This document shows positions 44,595-53,219 of a stretch of 64,000 bases of DNA, piece after piece. The notes under the pieces were generated by a model, which was not told the DNA's origin, searched no databases, and saw nothing but the letters and a program-made list of their open reading frames with translations. A program made the position numbers and the translations under genes. How positions within the stretch are numbered: the first letter of the stretch is position 1; each line of letters starts with the position of its first letter. The DNA lies in contig JASJAY010000002.1 in the NCBI GenBank assembly GCA_030066775.1, positions 1 through 64,000 on the forward strand. The letters run 5' to 3'. This stretch comes from Planctomycetota bacterium. Its GTDB lineage: Bacteria; Planctomycetota; PLA2; JAEUHO01.

Positions 44595-46328
44595 CTACGG
44601 GACCTTGTCCGTATGGAAGCCCTCCCAGTCCATCGGGAGCGTCGGGACGTCGAAGAAGCCCGGTCCGCCTGCGTAGTGGCACTGGCGGCAGGCCTGATCG
44701 AGCGTCAGGTAGGGAAGCCGGAACTTCCCATCGGATGTGAGGGCCGGAGGCGCGCCGATGATGTCGATGCCGAAGATGTGCGAGGTCACGTCACCCCGCG
44801 TCACCCCGTTGGGCAACGTTGTCGAGGTAGCCGACTTCGAGGTCTTGGGCATGTGACAATCGACGCAGTTCAGCCCCGCCATGGTCCCACGGAAGGCGTT
44901 GGCCGGGTCGTAGGTCGCGGCCGAGTGACACGCCAAGCAGGACGCGTTCGACGAGTCGACACCGGCGGGTCCCGTGTAGGACGCGTTGTTCCGGTTGACC
45001 GTCGAGGCGTGCGAGTTGGTGTGACACGTGGCGCAGTCACCGTGCGTCGCGGCGAAGCTCGCCGTACGCGTGCTGAACGGCACGAGGTAGGTACCCAGGT
45101 TCATGGGATCCTCGTTCGGATCCAGGCCCAGGATCTCGTCGTACTGCTCGTGGTGACGAACCAGTCCGCCCTTGGCTGCGATGCGCCCGCCCATGTCCGG
45201 CCAGTTGGCATCCCCGGTCCAGCCCGCAGCCTGCGCTGCGCTCTGGAAGGTCGGGTAGTCCCGCTCGCCATCGCGGGTGTGGCACTCACCGCATGCGACC
45301 GCCGCGCCGTAGCCGAGCTTCGGCGACGCGAAGTCTGCAGCGGTGCGCGGGCCGGCCTTGAGAACGATGTCCGCGGCCAGCTCGGTCTGCGCGTGCGTGC
45401 TACCTGCACCGTGACAAGCCTCGCAGCGGATGCCACCCTCTTCGAAGGTGCCCCGCATGCCGGCGAGCCCATCCTGTCCAACGGGGTTGTCCATCGGATC
45501 GGTGTGCTTCCAGCCCGTCGTGTGGCAGTTGCCGCAGGTGTACGCCTTGTCGTCCTCGTTGTTGTGGTACGAGGTTATCGTCGGCATGGTCAGGTTGCCG
45601 CCCGGGATCACGAAGTTGTACTGAACCTGCGTGCCCGTGACGATCCAACCCTGCGTATCGATGAAGCGCGTCTTCCAGTGGTACCCACCGATCACATAGG
45701 TGATCTCGTTCCACGACATCGGCGTGCCGGCCGGGTTGTCCGTGCCCATCGCCGGGTCGGCCAGGCCACCCATGATGTCCTGGTCGTCATCGGCCAGGAG
45801 TGCGAGTGCCGGCGAGATATCCGTGAACGGATACGTGGGCGGCACACCGCCTTCGACCTTGTTGAGCTTGTAGGGGTGACCGGTCTGCAGGTGGTTGGCC
45901 AACTGCGTCGTGTGACATACACCGCACGACTGGGTGCCGATGTAGGTGCCCGCCGCGAGCGGGACCATGTCGAAGTCGAACGTGGTGGTCTGCCCTGCCG
46001 TGACGGTGACCATGGAGGGCGACGTGTAGTCCTCATAGCCGGGGCGAACCGCCGAGAGGGTGTAGTCCCCAGCGGGCACGGCCGCGGCGTACGTGCCGTT
46101 GGTCTGTGCCGCAAATGGGGTGGTGCCGCCGGCCGGGGTGAGCGTGATGATGACGTACTCATCGAGTGCGCCACCACCCATGGCCGACGCGGTGCCGGCG
46201 ATTGCGGTGACCGGAGGCGGCGGGCTGCCGCTGCTTCCGCCGCAGCCGGCGAGGACGAGCGTTGCGACGAGCGCGAACGCGACTGCGACTGCCCTTGGAT
46301 GGCCGCCGCTTGGACTACTCTTGTTCAC
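44595..46328 (-). CDS. Octaheme c-type cytochrome lipoprotein with N-terminal Ig/CarboxypepD-like domain
   Basis: The 577-residue protein starts at GTG 46328, six bases after a strong AGGAGG. The lipobox LVLAGC (Cys29) anchors it to a membrane. A domain of about 85 residues (IAGTASAMGGGALDEYVIITLTPAGGTTP) resembles carboxypeptidase regulatory-like beta-sandwiches. The rest carries eight CxxCH sites: CGVCH, CGNCH, CEACH, CGECH, CATCH, CLACH, CVDCH and CRQCH. It is presumably an extracytoplasmic electron carrier or oxidoreductase. No close enzyme family (hydroxylamine, nitrite or tetrathionate octaheme) is clearly matched. Confidence 0.85.
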   Translation of the reverse strand: MNKSSPSGGHPRAVAVAFALVATLVLAGCGGSSGSPPPPVTAIAGTASAMGGGALDEYVIITLTPAGGTTPFAAQTNGTYAAAVPAGDYTLSAVRPGYEDYTSPSMVTVTAGQTTTFDFDMVPLAAGTYIGTQSCGVCHTTQLANHLQTGHPYKLNKVEGGVPPTYPFTDISPALALLADDDQDIMGGLADPAMGTDNPAGTPMSWNEITYVIGGYHWKTRFIDTQGWIVTGTQVQYNFVIPGGNLTMPTITSYHNNEDDKAYTCGNCHTTGWKHTDPMDNPVGQDGLAGMRGTFEEGGIRCEACHGAGSTHAQTELAADIVLKAGPRTAADFASPKLGYGAAVACGECHTRDGERDYPTFQSAAQAAGWTGDANWPDMGGRIAAKGGLVRHHEQYDEILGLDPNEDPMNLGTYLVPFSTRTASFAATHGDCATCHTNSHASTVNRNNASYTGPAGVDSSNASCLACHSAATYDPANAFRGTMAGLNCVDCHMPKTSKSATSTTLPNGVTRGDVTSHIFGIDIIGAPPALTSDGKFRLPYLTLDQACRQCHYAGGPGFFDVPTLPMDWEGFHTDKVP

Positions 46329-46838: not shown

Positions 46839-48317
46839 ATGAAGACGCACCCGACCCCTTACGTCGCAATCGGCATGTTGCTGTGCATGGCCGGCATCTG
46901 CTTCGCCGGCCCGGAAGCCGAGCTGCAGAAGAAGTACGAAGAGAAGATCGCGAAGCCGTTCGTCGCCCACGGCGGATGGAGCGTGGACTACGACGAAGCA
47001 CGTGAACGTGCGGCCAAGGAGCAGAAGCTCATCTTCACCTACTTCACGCGTTCGTATGCACGGTGAGGCCCTTGTGACGCATTGGAGAGCGGTCCGCTCT
47101 CCGCGCCCGAGTTCGTGGCGTTCGCGAAGAAGGTCGTTGCGTACATGCACGTGACGACACGCATCCCGGATCGCAAGCACGATGGGCTGCTCCAGGAGAA
47201 GGGCTTCGGCGGCTTCCCCACGCTGGCGTTCCTGGACGCCGAGGGCAACGTCCTCGCGGAGCCGAACGGACGCAGCGTCGAGGCCTTCGAAGCCACACTC
47301 GTCGCCATCGGGCAGCTCGACGAGCTCAACCGCCGCATCGAGGCGGGGGAGACGGGCCTCGAGGCAGAGCTGCTGCTCGTCGAGCACACGCTGGGCAAGG
47401 TGCGGGGACTGGCGTTCGATGAACGTGCCGCGGCGCTGGAGAAGGTCACCGACGCACAACGCGTCCGCATCGATCAGATCCTCGTGGACAACGAGGTCAT
47501 GCGGCTGGCCGTCATGCCCCGACAGGGAGGACTGGAGGGGCTGAAGAAGGCGGCGGAGGGCATGCTCGCCCTGCTCGACAAGGGGAAGCACCCGACGAAG
47601 GACATCCGCTACATCTATCCCCTCTGGTCCACGATCGGCCGGTACGGCTTGGAGACGAAGAACAGCGCCCTGCTGAAGAAGGCCGCCGACGGCCTCTCGA
47701 CCGACCTGCCGGAAGAAGAGGCGCTCAAGCCCGTCGCGGCGCAGTTCCGGGAGTCCGCCACTCGGCTCGATCACCACGCAGCGATCCTGAAGCGCGTGGA
47801 AGCGGGGGAGCAAGGGCTGGAGGCCGCGCTGCTGCTGGCCGCCTTCCGCATCGGCACCGTGAAGGGCGACGCATTCAAGGCGCAAGCCACGGCGTTGCTC
47901 GACAAGGCGACGGACGAGGAGCGCGGGCAGCTCGGAGAGGCGCTGCGCGAGGTCGCGTTCGGCGCGCACATCCGGCCGTTCCGTTCGCGCGAGGAGGCCG
48001 ACGCCGCGTGTGCAGAGATGCTGAACATGATCGACGTGGCGGGCGATCCGCCCGTGGGCGTGGCGAAGCAGGTCTGGGGTCTCTTGCTCGGATACGCGAC
48101 GCGCCAAGCGGATCCGGACCTGATGGAGCGGGTCGCGGACAAGTTCATCGAGGCCTACACCGGCAACAAGGGCGCGCAGGACTACGCGCGCGGCATCAAG
48201 ACACAGGCGCAGAAGCTGCGGGCCGAACAGGCCAAGGCGGCGGAGGACGCGGAGAAGGCCGAGGGCGACAAGCCGGCGGATGACAAGCCGGACGACGACA
48301 AGTCCGGCGGCGGATAG
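46839..48317 (+). CDS. Exported thioredoxin-like selenoprotein (U-G-P-C) with long helical C-terminus, TGA recoded
   Basis: Read through the in-frame TGA at 47064-47066, this gives 492 residues from ATG 46839. A signal peptide (ending GICFAGP) precedes KLIFTYFTRSYAR-U-GPC, so the TGA (codon 76) replaces the first Cys of the classical thioredoxin C-G-P-C. Then FGGFPTLAFLDAEGNVLAE matches thioredoxin's cis-Pro region. From about residue 165 to the end it is mostly helical, with an acidic Lys/Asp tail. A perfect 8-bp hairpin begins 17 nt after the TGA. A periplasmic redox role is likely; the substrate is unknown. It is divergent from an octaheme cytochrome. Confidence 0.85.
47084..47102 (+). promoter_or_regulatory. 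Candidate bacterial SECIS hairpin for the 46839-48317 gene
   Basis: GGAGAGCG (47084-47091) pairs perfectly with CGCTCTCC (47095-47102); the 3-nt loop is GTC. The loop begins 25 nt after the TGA, within the 16-37 nt range usual for bacterial SECIS elements, and its first base is G. The tip CGGTCCG resembles the tip of the 34506-34523 hairpin. Confidence 0.75.
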
Positions 48318-48371: not shown

Positions 48372-49238
48372 TCAGAAACGGAACTCGGCGCTGAGCACGG
48401 TCTGGTGCAGCCAGGCGAACGTGTACACCGTGTCGTTGTCGGCACCGCCTTCGATCGTCCGGTAGCCCAAGCCGATGCTCCAGCGATCGTCGATGTCGTA
48501 GAAGAGCTTGGCCGAGAAGTCGAAGGCGCGTCCCTGCGGCGCCCATGCGCCGTCGAGATCGGCTACGAAGCGCCAGCACGGCGCGAGGCGCTTCTCGAAG
48601 GCCACGTGCAGGAGCGGCACGAACCCCAGGTCCGTGTCCTTGGCGGACGTACCACCCTGCTCGAGCTCGATCTTCGCGTCGCGGATCTTCGCCGTCGCGC
48701 CGACATGGAGCGACCAATCGCACCCGCAGCCGAGGAGGTAGCGGTACGTGAGGCGATACGAGTTGAACTTGTACGTCGCCTTCGTGCGCTGGCCCGCGGC
48801 GAAGAGCTGCCCGTCGAAGGAGACCTGCTGATCGAGGGTGTCGGTGCCGGAGAGCTCGAGCGGCGCGACGACCGCGCGGACGGTGTGGCGCGGCGCCACG
48901 TGCCAGTCGAACGTGAGCCGTCCGTAGGGGAAGGGCCCCGCGCCCGTGAGGTCGTCGAGATCGAAGCGGGTGCCCGTGTCGCCGGGGATCGCCACCTCGT
49001 TCCTCGACTGCCACACCGGCCCGGCCTCGAGCTCCAATCGGAACCGCTTGTACGCGCGCTCGCGCCGGGGGCCGCACGTCCAGTCCAGACAGCACGGCTC
49101 GCCCTGCGCGATCGTCCCGTCCTGCGCGAAGGCACGCCGCTCGACCACGGCACCGCGCTGACCGATCGCGAGCTGGGTGCGGCAGCCGGCGAGCGCCAGC
49201 AAGGCCACGGCGAGACATCCCATCCAAAGTCGGTACAC
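48372..49238 (-). CDS. Outer-membrane beta-barrel lipoprotein of unknown function
   Basis: The 288-residue protein starts at ATG 49238. The signal peptide ends in a lipobox (LALAGC, Cys19). The body has repeated alternating aromatic strands (TYKFNSYRLTYRYLL, AFDFSAKLFYDIDDRWSIGLGYR) and ends ...VLSAEFRF, with a terminal Phe as in proteins inserted by BAM. A Cys cluster (EPCCLDWTC) near the N-terminus may form disulfides. Function unknown. It converges on the selenoprotein gene, 54 bp apart. Confidence 0.7.
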   Translation of the reverse strand: MYRLWMGCLAVALLALAGCRTQLAIGQRGAVVERRAFAQDGTIAQGEPCCLDWTCGPRRERAYKRFRLELEAGPVWQSRNEVAIPGDTGTRFDLDDLTGAGPFPYGRLTFDWHVAPRHTVRAVVAPLELSGTDTLDQQVSFDGQLFAAGQRTKATYKFNSYRLTYRYLLGCGCDWSLHVGATAKIRDAKIELEQGGTSAKDTDLGFVPLLHVAFEKRLAPCWRFVADLDGAWAPQGRAFDFSAKLFYDIDDRWSIGLGYRTIEGGADNDTVYTFAWLHQTVLSAEFRF

Positions 49239-49291: not shown

Positions 49292-52200
49292 CTACATCGA
49301 AGCGGCCCCGATCCGTCGCACGAGATCCACCGCGTCGAAGGCGGGGCGGTCCGCGGCGTCGAGGCTCGCACGCATGTGATCGAGCAGCTGGGTGGCGCGT
49401 GCAAGGTGCGACGCGTCGCCGCCCGCCTCGTAGAGCGCGTACCAGGCTTCAGCACGGTCGAACGCCGGAAGCGCCGGGGCCCGCGCCTCGAGCGTGTGGA
49501 CTGCGGGCTCCAGCGTGGCGGCATCGAGCTTCGTCTGGAGCGCCACGGCGAGGACGCCCGAGGTGTCGATGCCCACGTCGGGCGCGTCGAGGACCTCAGC
49601 CAGATGCATGGCCGCGACGTCCGGTCGATCGGTGCAGAGCGCGGTGCGCCCCATCCCCGTGAGGGCGCGGAGCGCGTCCGCGCTGGACGCCGCCGCCGCG
49701 CGCGACCGTTCGTGCAGCGCGTACGCCTCGTCGTAGCGCGCTTCGGCCTCGCACAGGCGCGCCTCGACCCACAGGGCGTGCGGCGCCCACCGCGCGTCGA
49801 CTGTCTTGCCGTGGCGTTCCGTCATGTCCGCCAGGGCCTCGCGCGCCTGGGTGAGCTGCCCCGCGACGGCCCAGGCATGGACCAGCCGGCCGACGATGTG
49901 GCGCAGCAACCCGAGGTAGCCCATCGCCTCGACCGCGTCGCGCGCTTCCACGAGATGCCGGAGCCCCTCGCCCAGCTCCCCGGTGTGCACGCAGAGCCAC
50001 CCCTGGTTCGCCGTGGCGAACGCCGCGGCGATGGGCTCGTCGCTCGTCTCCGCGAGGCGGACCGCCTCCCGGGCCTGGCGCGTGGCGTCCTCGATGCGGC
50101 CGAGCTCCATCAGGGTCTCGCTGAGGTTGCCGCGGCTGATGATCTCGTGCTTGCGGTCGCCGAGCTCCATGCCGAGTGCGAGCGAGGCCTCGAGCTGCTC
50201 GAGCGCCTCCCCCATCCGCCCCCGTCGCTGCAGCAGGCCCGCGAGAACGGCCTGTGCCCGGCTGGCCGTGCGCAGACCCCCGACCTTCAGGCACTGCTCG
50301 AGCCCCTCGCGCAGGATCGCCTCGGCGCCGCTCGGATCGGCGCTCTCGGCGGCGAGCAAGCCGAGCGAGACGGTGGCGCTCGCCACCGCCATCGTCGCAC
50401 CGAGCGCGCTTGCGCGGTCTCGCGCCGCCTCGAGCGCCCGCATGGCTTCATCCGTGTGCCCGAGGTTGCCCAGGATGACGCCCGCGGCGATCCGACACCG
50501 GGTCTCGGCCTCCTCTTGCCCGCTCGCCTGCGCCTCTTCGGCGGCGCGCTCGTAGTACGCACGCGCGTCGGCCAGGTTGCCGCTGGTCCGGGCCAAGCGG
50601 CCCTCCAGCTCCAGGAGCTGGACGGTGCCGAGCTCCGGGTTCATCGTGGCGATCGCCGTCGCCTCGTAGCACGCCGCGCGCGCCTCCTCCGGTCGCGACA
50701 TCGTGATGAGCGCCCGCCCCTTGGTGCACAGGGCGCGCACGCGGAGCTCGGCGGGAATCTCCGCGTCGCTCTCCAGGACGGCCGTCACGAGCGCGTCGAC
50801 CTCGGCGGGTCGGGAGAGGTCGAGCGTACGCAAGACCTCCTCCAGGTACGGCGCGATGCGTTCCGCCTGTCCTGCGGCGAGGAAGTGGCGCGCCATCACG
50901 ATGGCGCGCGGCCCGGGCAGGGCGTACTTCGGTTCGTCGCCCGCGTCGGCGAGGCACGCCGCTAACGTCTCATGGAGCGTCGCACGCAATGCCTCGTGCA
51001 TGCGCTCGAGCAGCGCTTCGTGCGTAAGGCGGTGGCTGAAGCGATAGAGGCGTCCCGCGGACTCGAGAAACCCGTCGGCGCGCGCGAGGCCGTCGAGGGT
51101 GCGCAGCACGCGGATGCGCGGCAGGCCGAGCGCGTCCGCGATCCAACACGGGTCGAACCGGGGACCGGCACACGCGGCGGCGTCCAGCAGCTCGCGGGCG
51201 TTGTCGTCCAGGTCGGCCAGGTGTGCTTCCAATGCGTGCTGCAAGGAGTCGGGCAGCTCGGCGGCGCCATCTCGACCCAGCATGCGCCCGAGCTCGACGA
51301 GGTAGAGCGGGTTGCCGCCGGCCCGCTCCGCAGCCGCGTCGAGACGGCGCTCCGTCACGTCGACATCTTGCGTCGACGCGCGCAGCAAGCTGCGCGCATC
51401 GCTCGGGGGCAGCACGCCGAGCGCCAGCTGCTGGATGGCGTCGGAACGCAGGTGCGGCACCAGGACCGCCGGCGGCTCGGCGGACGTGATGCCGATCACG
51501 ACGATCGGCGCGTCGCGCGCCGCGAGGGCGATGCGCACGAAGGCCTGCTGGTCCTCGCGGCTGGCGCGATCCAGGTCGTCGAACGCGAGCAGGACGGGGC
51601 CGTCGGCGGCGAGCGCGCGCAAGACCTCGACGAACGCCGTCGCCCGGGCGTCCGGCGTGAGCGTGCGCGCCGCCTCGGACTCGATGCCGCGCAGGACATC
51701 GGCGAACGGGCCGGCGACGGCCGAGAGCCCCGTGAGCATCGTCGCGAGCCGGTGCTCGAGATCGGCGGGACCCAGGTGCTCGCCGAAGGCCGCGGCAAGG
51801 GAGGTCGAGACTTGCCCGACGCCGGCGCCACCAGCCAGGACACATCGCGGGTGATGCGAGCTCCGCGAGGCCCGGGCGAGCCACACGCGCAGGAGATGCG
51901 TGCGCCCCAGACCGGGATCGCCGGAGACGACGAGGGCGCCGCCGCGCCCGCTGCCGACGCGGGTCAGGAGCGCGTCGAGCCGCCGCAGCTCGCCCTCGCG
52001 TCCGACGTGCGGTTCGGGGAAGGGGAAGGCGGTCTCCGCGGTGGACTCGGCCATGCCGGTCTCGAGCCACCAGGCCGAGTCCTCGCCCTCCGCCAGGATC
52101 GTGGCGACCTCGTCGGCGCTGTCGAAGCGGTCCGTGCGCTCGGTCTGCAGCAGGCGCGCGACGACCGCGTCCATGAGCCGGGAGACCTGCGGCACCGCGT

Positions 52201-53089
52201 CGCGCACGCGCGGGAGGACACCCCGCCGCGCAGTCGGGTCCATCGCCGTGCCGTCCGGCGCGAGCCAGGCGTGCTGTCCGGTCAGCAGCTCGTAGAGCAC
52301 GAGCCCGAGCGCATACAGATCCGTGCGCTCGTCGAGCTCGCCGCCGAGCAGCTGTTCCGGTGCCGCGTAGAGCCGGCTGCCCACGAACTGGCCCGTCACC
52401 GAGAGCCGCGTGACGCCCTCGCGCTGGAGCGCGATGCCCATGTCCATCAGCTTGATGGTCTCGTCCGGCGTGATCAGGATGTTCTCGGGCTTGACGTCGC
52501 GGTGCAGGAGCCCGGCTGCGTGGACGGCGCCGAGCGCCCGTGCCACGTCGCGCCCGACCAGACGCACGAGCCGCTCGGACATCGGGCCGCTCTTCACCGT
52601 GGCGCTGTAGAGGTCCTCGCCCTCGACGTACTCGAGGACCAGGAACGGGCGGGGCGACTCCTTGGAGCCCGTCCATCCGAGCTCGAGCGTGCGCACGATG
52701 CCGGGGTGATCGAGGCGCATGCCGGCTTCCGCTTCGCGCAGGAACCGCCGGTAGTAGTCCGTGTTGCCGAGCAAGTGCGCATGCACGAGCTTGATCGCGA
52801 CCGTCGTGCCGGAGGGCGCGCGCGCCTCGAACACCGCCCCCATGCCGCCCTGGCCGAGCCGGCGCACGATCTCGTAGGGGCCGATCGCCTCCGGGAGCTC
52901 GTCCCCCGAGCGCGCATGCGCGCCTTCCATGGCCATGAGGACGGGGAAGAGGTGGCGAATGCGCTCGGCGAGCTCGGGGTGCTCGGTCGCGTACGCCTCG
53001 ATGTCGGGCGTCTCGCCCTCACGCAGGCGCGCCGAGAACGACTCGGCCAGCTCATCGAGGCGGTCTTCGAGCTCGTCGTCCGTGCTCAC
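49292..53089 (-). CDS. Ser/Thr protein kinase fused to NTPase and TPR domains (PknK-like regulator)
   Basis: The 1265-residue protein is best started at GTG 53089 (AGG seven to ten bases before); ATG 53140 is possible. An N-terminal helical segment precedes a kinase: G-loop LGQGGMGAVFEA, Lys100, HRDVKPEN (His196), DMG at 216-218 in place of DFG, and AAPEQL. An NTPase follows, with HVGREGELRRL and GDPGLGRTH (390-398), where the P-loop lysine is Arg, and FDDLD as Walker B. The last about 700 residues are TPR-type helices. It probably links a signal to a downstream kinase output. No target is visible. Confidence 0.9.
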   Translation of the reverse strand: MSTDDELEDRLDELAESFSARLREGETPDIEAYATEHPELAERIRHLFPVLMAMEGAHARSGDELPEAIGPYEIVRRLGQGGMGAVFEARAPSGTTVAIKLVHAHLLGNTDYYRRFLREAEAGMRLDHPGIVRTLELGWTGSKESPRPFLVLEYVEGEDLYSATVKSGPMSERLVRLVGRDVARALGAVHAAGLLHRDVKPENILITPDETIKLMDMGIALQREGVTRLSVTGQFVGSRLYAAPEQLLGGELDERTDLYALGLVLYELLTGQHAWLAPDGTAMDPTARRGVLPRVRDAVPQVSRLMDAVVARLLQTERTDRFDSADEVATILAEGEDSAWWLETGMAESTAETAFPFPEPHVGREGELRRLDALLTRVGSGRGGALVVSGDPGLGRTHLLRVWLARASRSSHHPRCVLAGGAGVGQVSTSLAAAFGEHLGPADLEHRLATMLTGLSAVAGPFADVLRGIESEAARTLTPDARATAFVEVLRALAADGPVLLAFDDLDRASREDQQAFVRIALAARDAPIVVIGITSAEPPAVLVPHLRSDAIQQLALGVLPPSDARSLLRASTQDVDVTERRLDAAAERAGGNPLYLVELGRMLGRDGAAELPDSLQHALEAHLADLDDNARELLDAAACAGPRFDPCWIADALGLPRIRVLRTLDGLARADGFLESAGRLYRFSHRLTHEALLERMHEALRATLHETLAACLADAGDEPKYALPGPRAIVMARHFLAAGQAERIAPYLEEVLRTLDLSRPAEVDALVTAVLESDAEIPAELRVRALCTKGRALITMSRPEEARAACYEATAIATMNPELGTVQLLELEGRLARTSGNLADARAYYERAAEEAQASGQEEAETRCRIAAGVILGNLGHTDEAMRALEAARDRASALGATMAVASATVSLGLLAAESADPSGAEAILREGLEQCLKVGGLRTASRAQAVLAGLLQRRGRMGEALEQLEASLALGMELGDRKHEIISRGNLSETLMELGRIEDATRQAREAVRLAETSDEPIAAAFATANQGWLCVHTGELGEGLRHLVEARDAVEAMGYLGLLRHIVGRLVHAWAVAGQLTQAREALADMTERHGKTVDARWAPHALWVEARLCEAEARYDEAYALHERSRAAAASSADALRALTGMGRTALCTDRPDVAAMHLAEVLDAPDVGIDTSGVLAVALQTKLDAATLEPAVHTLEARAPALPAFDRAEAWYALYEAGGDASHLARATQLLDHMRASLDAADRPAFDAVDLVRRIGAASM

Positions 53090-53219
53090 GCCGCTGACCT
53101 GCCTCCATCTCGGGACCGACGCTGTCGGCCCGCGCGCCAAGGCGCGGAGCGTACGTCGCTGCCGCCCGGCGCGCCAGCCAGGCCATGGTTCGTGATGCCG
53201 GCGCCGTGCGCGCCGTGGT

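Follow-up and report, generated by a model that had tools for sequence, protein, structure and literature searches.

Thioredoxin-fold selenoproteins with Sec at the first position of a UxxC motif have been described previously. The thiol:disulfide interchange selenoprotein of PF13098 and the GOS Trx-like 2/3 proteins were predicted to have a periplasmic redox role (PMC13188914, PMC2398784), and the GOS_C hypothetical selenoprotein (NF045500), which also carries UxxC in a Trx-like fold, was assigned to cd02973 (PMC9312934). A Thioredoxin_7-type domain able to carry Sec is found in the Trx7/PDZ (seleno)protein (NF041199, GOS PDZ family), where Sec is the second residue of the motif (CxxU) and a PDZ domain is present; it was the sole Thioredoxin_7 selenoprotein that we found in reviews. 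Similar domains using Cys are DsbH (NF043050; PDB 2ju5), an exported single thioredoxin domain of ~166 aa, and the C-terminal (gamma) domain of DsbD (1uc7, 1vrs), which is fused to a membrane electron carrier. Selenoproteins of planctomycetes are the subject of one paper (PMC4807772).

The window, which is the whole stretch of 64,000 nucleotides analysed from a Planctomycetota bacterium, holds a gene whose translation has one internal TGA only, at codon 76, in the context FTYFTRSYARUGPCDALESG (YFTRSYAR-U-GPC being residues 68-79). The features of the locus are listed in Table 1. An earlier note had read this TGA as replacing the first Cys of a C-G-P-C motif, which the translation bears out. 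The same note took the motif for that of thioredoxins; Sec indeed stands at the CxxC position, yet the protein is no classical thioredoxin, an identity that was rejected since the window protein has no match to PF00085 (Thioredoxin) at E <= 1, and only 5 of the 46 aligned family members match that profile, weakly. Across the family, UPPC is as typical a motif as UGPC, and the positions invariant in the 46-sequence alignment are Y68, U76, C79, E83, P127 and G136, among which P127 presumably occupies the cis-proline position of the thioredoxin fold.

Table 1. Features of the selenoprotein locus (positions in the window)
Feature	Coordinates	Strand	Basis or remark
Octaheme c-type cytochrome lipoprotein, divergent neighbour, linkage not conserved	44595..46328	-	8 CxxCH
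Selenoprotein gene, 492 aa, one Sec (U76), TAG stop	46839..48317	+	translation, homologue comparison
Predicted N-terminal signal peptide, approx. residues 1-23, export	46839..46907	+	inference
Thioredoxin-fold domain, residues ~47-142, Thioredoxin_7/DsbH-like	46977..47264	+	profile and structure matches
UGA codon read as Sec (U76), first position of UGPC	47064..47066	+	translation, alignment
Resolving cysteine C79 of UxxC	47073..47075	+	invariant in 46-sequence alignment
SECIS hairpin, 8 bp, loop GUC	47084..47102	+	pairing, covariation, bSECIS model in PMC13188914
P127 (GFP)	47217..47219	+	invariant proline in alignment
First helical unit, residues ~147-303, common to family	47277..47747	+	alignment, model
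Second helical unit, residues ~304-476, internal duplicate of first	47748..48266	+	self-comparison, alignment

By sequence, the nearest relatives are Thioredoxin_7, DsbH and DsbD-gamma. The window protein scores 26.6 bits against PF13899 (Thioredoxin_7), where the cut-off is 27, and 43/46 members match this profile at E <= 0.01. In the AlphaFold model (pLDDT 93.7), a signal peptide is followed by a thioredoxin fold and then by an all-helical extension; the best PDB matches of the fold are DsbH 2ju5 and DsbD-gamma 1uc7/1vrs, with weak Foldseek E-values (best 1.6e-3), and a viral structure library returned generic thioredoxins only. The signal peptide is predicted from a hydrophobic N-terminus ending in AG, a low-confidence helix in the model and a hydrophobic leader found family-wide. 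The extension, put at about 300 residues in the earlier note, comprises about 330 residues and is helical throughout according to the model. It has no structural relatives at E <= 0.001, matching generic helical repeats only. Residues ~165-284 and ~318-434 form an internal repeat (34% identity, E 5e-7), and this duplicated unit is present only in the window gene, in its paralogue on contig C226 and in the homologue of genome G005, the other members having one unit.

DsbH is the best match of the window protein in both sequence and fold, with CxxC at the same place. However, DsbH uses Cys and lacks the helical extension, and the window protein reaches 32.5 bits against NF043050, whose cut-off is 190. 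DsbD-gamma resembles the domain in fold and differs in its Cys and its fused membrane carrier. Regarding the selenoproteins, the Trx7/PDZ protein has its Sec second and a PDZ domain, whereas the planctomycete family combines UxxC with the helical extension; NF041199 matched 19/46 members weakly, and neither it nor PDZ matched the window protein. The PF13098 selenoprotein shares UxxC but belongs to another Pfam family, the window protein scoring 16.9 bits, below the cut-off of 27, and NF045500 matched 0/46 members at E <= 0.01. For the PF13098 selenoprotein and GOS Trx-like 2/3, no helical extension is described, a distinction drawn from descriptions. In NCBIfam the window protein is above no model's cut-off and the selenoprotein models match members weakly, while among the 119 prokaryotic selenoprotein families inventoried in 2026, none of Thioredoxin_7 type combines UxxC with a helical extension. 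Hence this is apparently a new, undescribed family of UxxC thioredoxin-like selenoproteins, set apart from GOS Trx-like 2/3 by descriptions. An earlier sighting of single members, in PMC4807772 or among the GOS Trx-like proteins, is possible.

Homologues were detected in 57 of 199 related genomes, mostly with exactly one internal TGA. A profile search found the family in 91/392 genomes of the same phylum, about a quarter of those sampled, with TGA nearly always present and often two to five copies per genome. The window gene's paralogue on contig C226, from the same genome and 56% identical, has its TGA at exactly the same codon. A DNA pattern spanning the codon, which selects for TGA, matched at least 115 stretches; among the 80 pattern matches listed with titles, most were labelled Planctomycetota and some only "bacterium". 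Once duplicates among the listed matches of these searches were removed, 143 distinct genes bore the motif; TGA stands at the codon in 141 of them and Cys in 2, in a set biased to TGA as it was partly gathered with the TGA-requiring pattern. The unbiased set alone contains ~75 Sec genes and 3 Cys genes (CAPC, CPPC and CGFC, the last being L078), plus a few degenerate paralogues. Comparison with Cys-containing homologues, proposed in the earlier note, thus found nearly all homologues to carry Sec and Cys to be rare at this codon. In the tree the two motif-matched Cys genes sit in different Sec clades, which suggests Sec-to-Cys replacement; as the tree is unrooted and the L032 branch long, this is a lead and not a proof. 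A full-length protein scan of the genome contigs returned no match, and no plasmid matched the family.

Several members depart from the common arrangement. Two or three Sec genes of the family stand in tandem at L049 (G126:C29), L048/L051 (G014, G016), L128 and L199, and the assembly of isolate OFTM109 holds at least six copies (L099, L105, L107, L146, L151, L166). Degenerate paralogues without the Sec/Cys pair were also found (L055, L056 at G120:C35:60495-61718, L079 and L089; for example FTRSDVDYAAC), one of them immediately preceding an intact Sec copy. Since the pair is gone in these paralogues, the fold can be put to non-redox use, and they are possible non-redox derivatives. In L052 (G169:C255) the motif is UAPA, with Sec kept and the resolving Cys lost, so that a different resolving thiol would be needed. 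Members also occur on contigs labelled Gemmatimonadota, Proteobacteria and Bacillota (L114, L152, L160); these labels are probably wrong, and L160 clusters tightly with genes from Planctomycetota.

Immediately downstream of the codon, the perfect 8-bp stem-loop reported in the earlier note was recovered, GGAGAGCG-GTC-CGCTCTCC, starting 17 nt after the TGA with a UGA-to-loop distance of 25 nt and an energy of -14.6 kcal/mol, all within published bSECIS limits (PMC13188914). By itself, without relatives, this hairpin would be weak evidence: the 60-nt stretch folds no better than shuffled sequence (z = -0.09), and a count over the whole window gave 22 perfect hairpins whose stem reaches 8 bp or more and whose loop spans 3-5 nt. 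Comparison with the relatives removes the doubt left by this single-sequence fold. The stems fall into two registers whose loop centres differ by one nucleotide, with loops GTN (88 genes) and GGN (47 genes), while 6 genes pair best in a third register. In register 58 (GTN), 92% of cells are paired and both sides have changed in 47 cells, where shuffles give 9.5; for register 56 (GGN), the values are 97.7% and 47 cells against 16, the paired percentages being biased upward as registers were assigned by best pairing. Both pairing and covariation are lost once the partner strand is shifted by 1-3 nt. Covarying pairs at silent third codon positions (C-G, U-A, G-C at +26/+32; G-C, C-G at +20/+38) would be hard to explain otherwise. 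Moreover, the stem averages 7.6 pairs, compared with 4.4 in synonymous-codon shuffles of the same proteins, and the hairpin is absent from both Cys genes tested.

These comparisons bear directly on the possibility that translation truly ends at the TGA, the gene being a pseudogene or starting downstream at TTG 47082 and the hairpin arising by chance. A TTG-started ORF of 411 aa does exist there, and the hairpin alone is thermodynamically unexceptional, but the sequence on both sides of the TGA is conserved over about 140 genes, with the TGA kept at exactly this codon, and the hairpin covaries. A downstream start would in addition remove the signal peptide and the active site. The comparative data already refute a true stop in practice, and it deserves next to no weight.

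The genome also encodes what Sec insertion requires: SelB (L007), SelA (L010), a tRNA-Sec with anticodon TCA (UCA) (L011) and SelD (L214), so that the absence of Sec machinery, which the earlier note had named as speaking against its reading, is not what is observed. The gene for SelD (G000:C206:72506-73423, minus strand) directly adjoins selA and carries a TGA in frame within the part encoding the active loop (GGUAAK); SelD is thus apparently a second selenoprotein of the genome, in an apparent selA-selD operon. Across the genomes, SelA was detected in 49/53 with a Sec member versus 90/146 without one (Fisher p = 1e-5), and the 4 Sec-bearing genomes lacking a detected SelA are each 77-84% complete. 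A genome-wide recoding of TGA, for instance as Trp or Cys in a code 4-like manner with no selenium involved, is hardly credible: no supporting point was found, the full SelA/SelB/SelD/tRNA-Sec set is present, and the codon at which family members repeatedly have TGA is that of the redox Cys. In addition, TGA terminates ordinary genes, such as the neighbour at 48372-49238, and even several family members themselves, and thus the code is not reassigned.

The conserved TGA, the rarity of Cys homologues, the covarying SECIS and the complete Sec machinery together argue very strongly for a Sec-decoded selenoprotein of thioredoxin fold, a grading that concerns decoding and fold and not the reaction; SECIS-driven Sec insertion, as far as sequence comparison can tell, is close to certain. 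UGA-76 would be read as Sec by SelB and tRNA-Sec at the in-gene SECIS hairpin just after the codon, and the mature exported protein would have a DsbH/DsbD-gamma-like thioredoxin fold. The U76 selenolate may then attack a substrate that is a disulfide, some other oxidised sulfur species or a peroxide, with C79 resolving the selenenylsulfide. The U76/C79 pair would most likely be re-reduced across the membrane by a DsbD-type protein, whose gene was found in the genome, and the C-terminal helical solenoid probably binds a substrate or partner. We infer an extracytoplasmic selenol-disulfide oxidoreductase with the helical part as its recognition module, and reduction of disulfides is the somewhat favoured direction of the reaction. 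Alternatively, the protein could act mainly as a peroxidase or as a persulfide- or selenide-handling enzyme; Sec is favoured in oxidant-facing enzymes and UxxC is also found in Prx-like selenoproteins (PMC13188914), but sequence and fold side with DsbH/DsbD-gamma/PDI-like reductases and not with peroxiredoxins, which leaves this an unlikely though still appreciable alternative to a disulfide reductase.

The gene is divergent from an octaheme cytochrome with 8 CxxCH motifs, as the earlier note had claimed, and from this a shared redox role had been proposed. In other bacteria, the thiols needed for heme attachment come from DsbD/CcdA-type proteins, and both neighbours are predicted to be exported; the selenoprotein could therefore be a redox partner of the cytochrome, with cytochrome c maturation and extracellular electron transfer as conceivable settings. 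Yet no other family locus has an octaheme-like or other close multiheme gene nearby or a tblastn match to the cytochrome, and the co-occurrence check, performed at family loci only, found the pairing in the window locus alone. No conserved operon or neighbourhood was detected either, the largest neighbour clusters covering 10/143 genes. The partnership was accordingly set aside as very improbable, its linkage being conserved at no other family locus. With no conserved neighbourhood and the octaheme pairing at no other locus, the selenoprotein probably acts alone or on many clients. The heme regions of the cytochrome itself are MtrC/cytochrome c554-like, and its N-terminal domain is carboxypeptidase-regulatory-like. 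Elsewhere in the window, the minus strand at 49292-53140 encodes a large protein that joins a Ser/Thr protein kinase to an AAA ATPase and TPR repeats.

Taken more broadly, the family may form a Planctomycetota-centred, multi-copy, selenium-dependent thiol redox system outside the cytoplasm, in which Sec is both ancestral and near-obligatory and the helical domain recruits substrates; we put this forward tentatively, as a reading somewhat short of probable. Sec is here the rule and Cys the exception, the reverse of the pattern on which discovery methods based on Cys/Sec pairs rely, and since Cys homologues are so rare, the family could be missed by such methods. Ordinary gene callers would truncate every member at the active site. 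The hairpins, which fall in two registers and are compatible with coding sequence, make up a natural collection of SECIS elements, and the family as a whole provides a test case for the question of what makes selenium necessary to an exported thioredoxin in some lineages.
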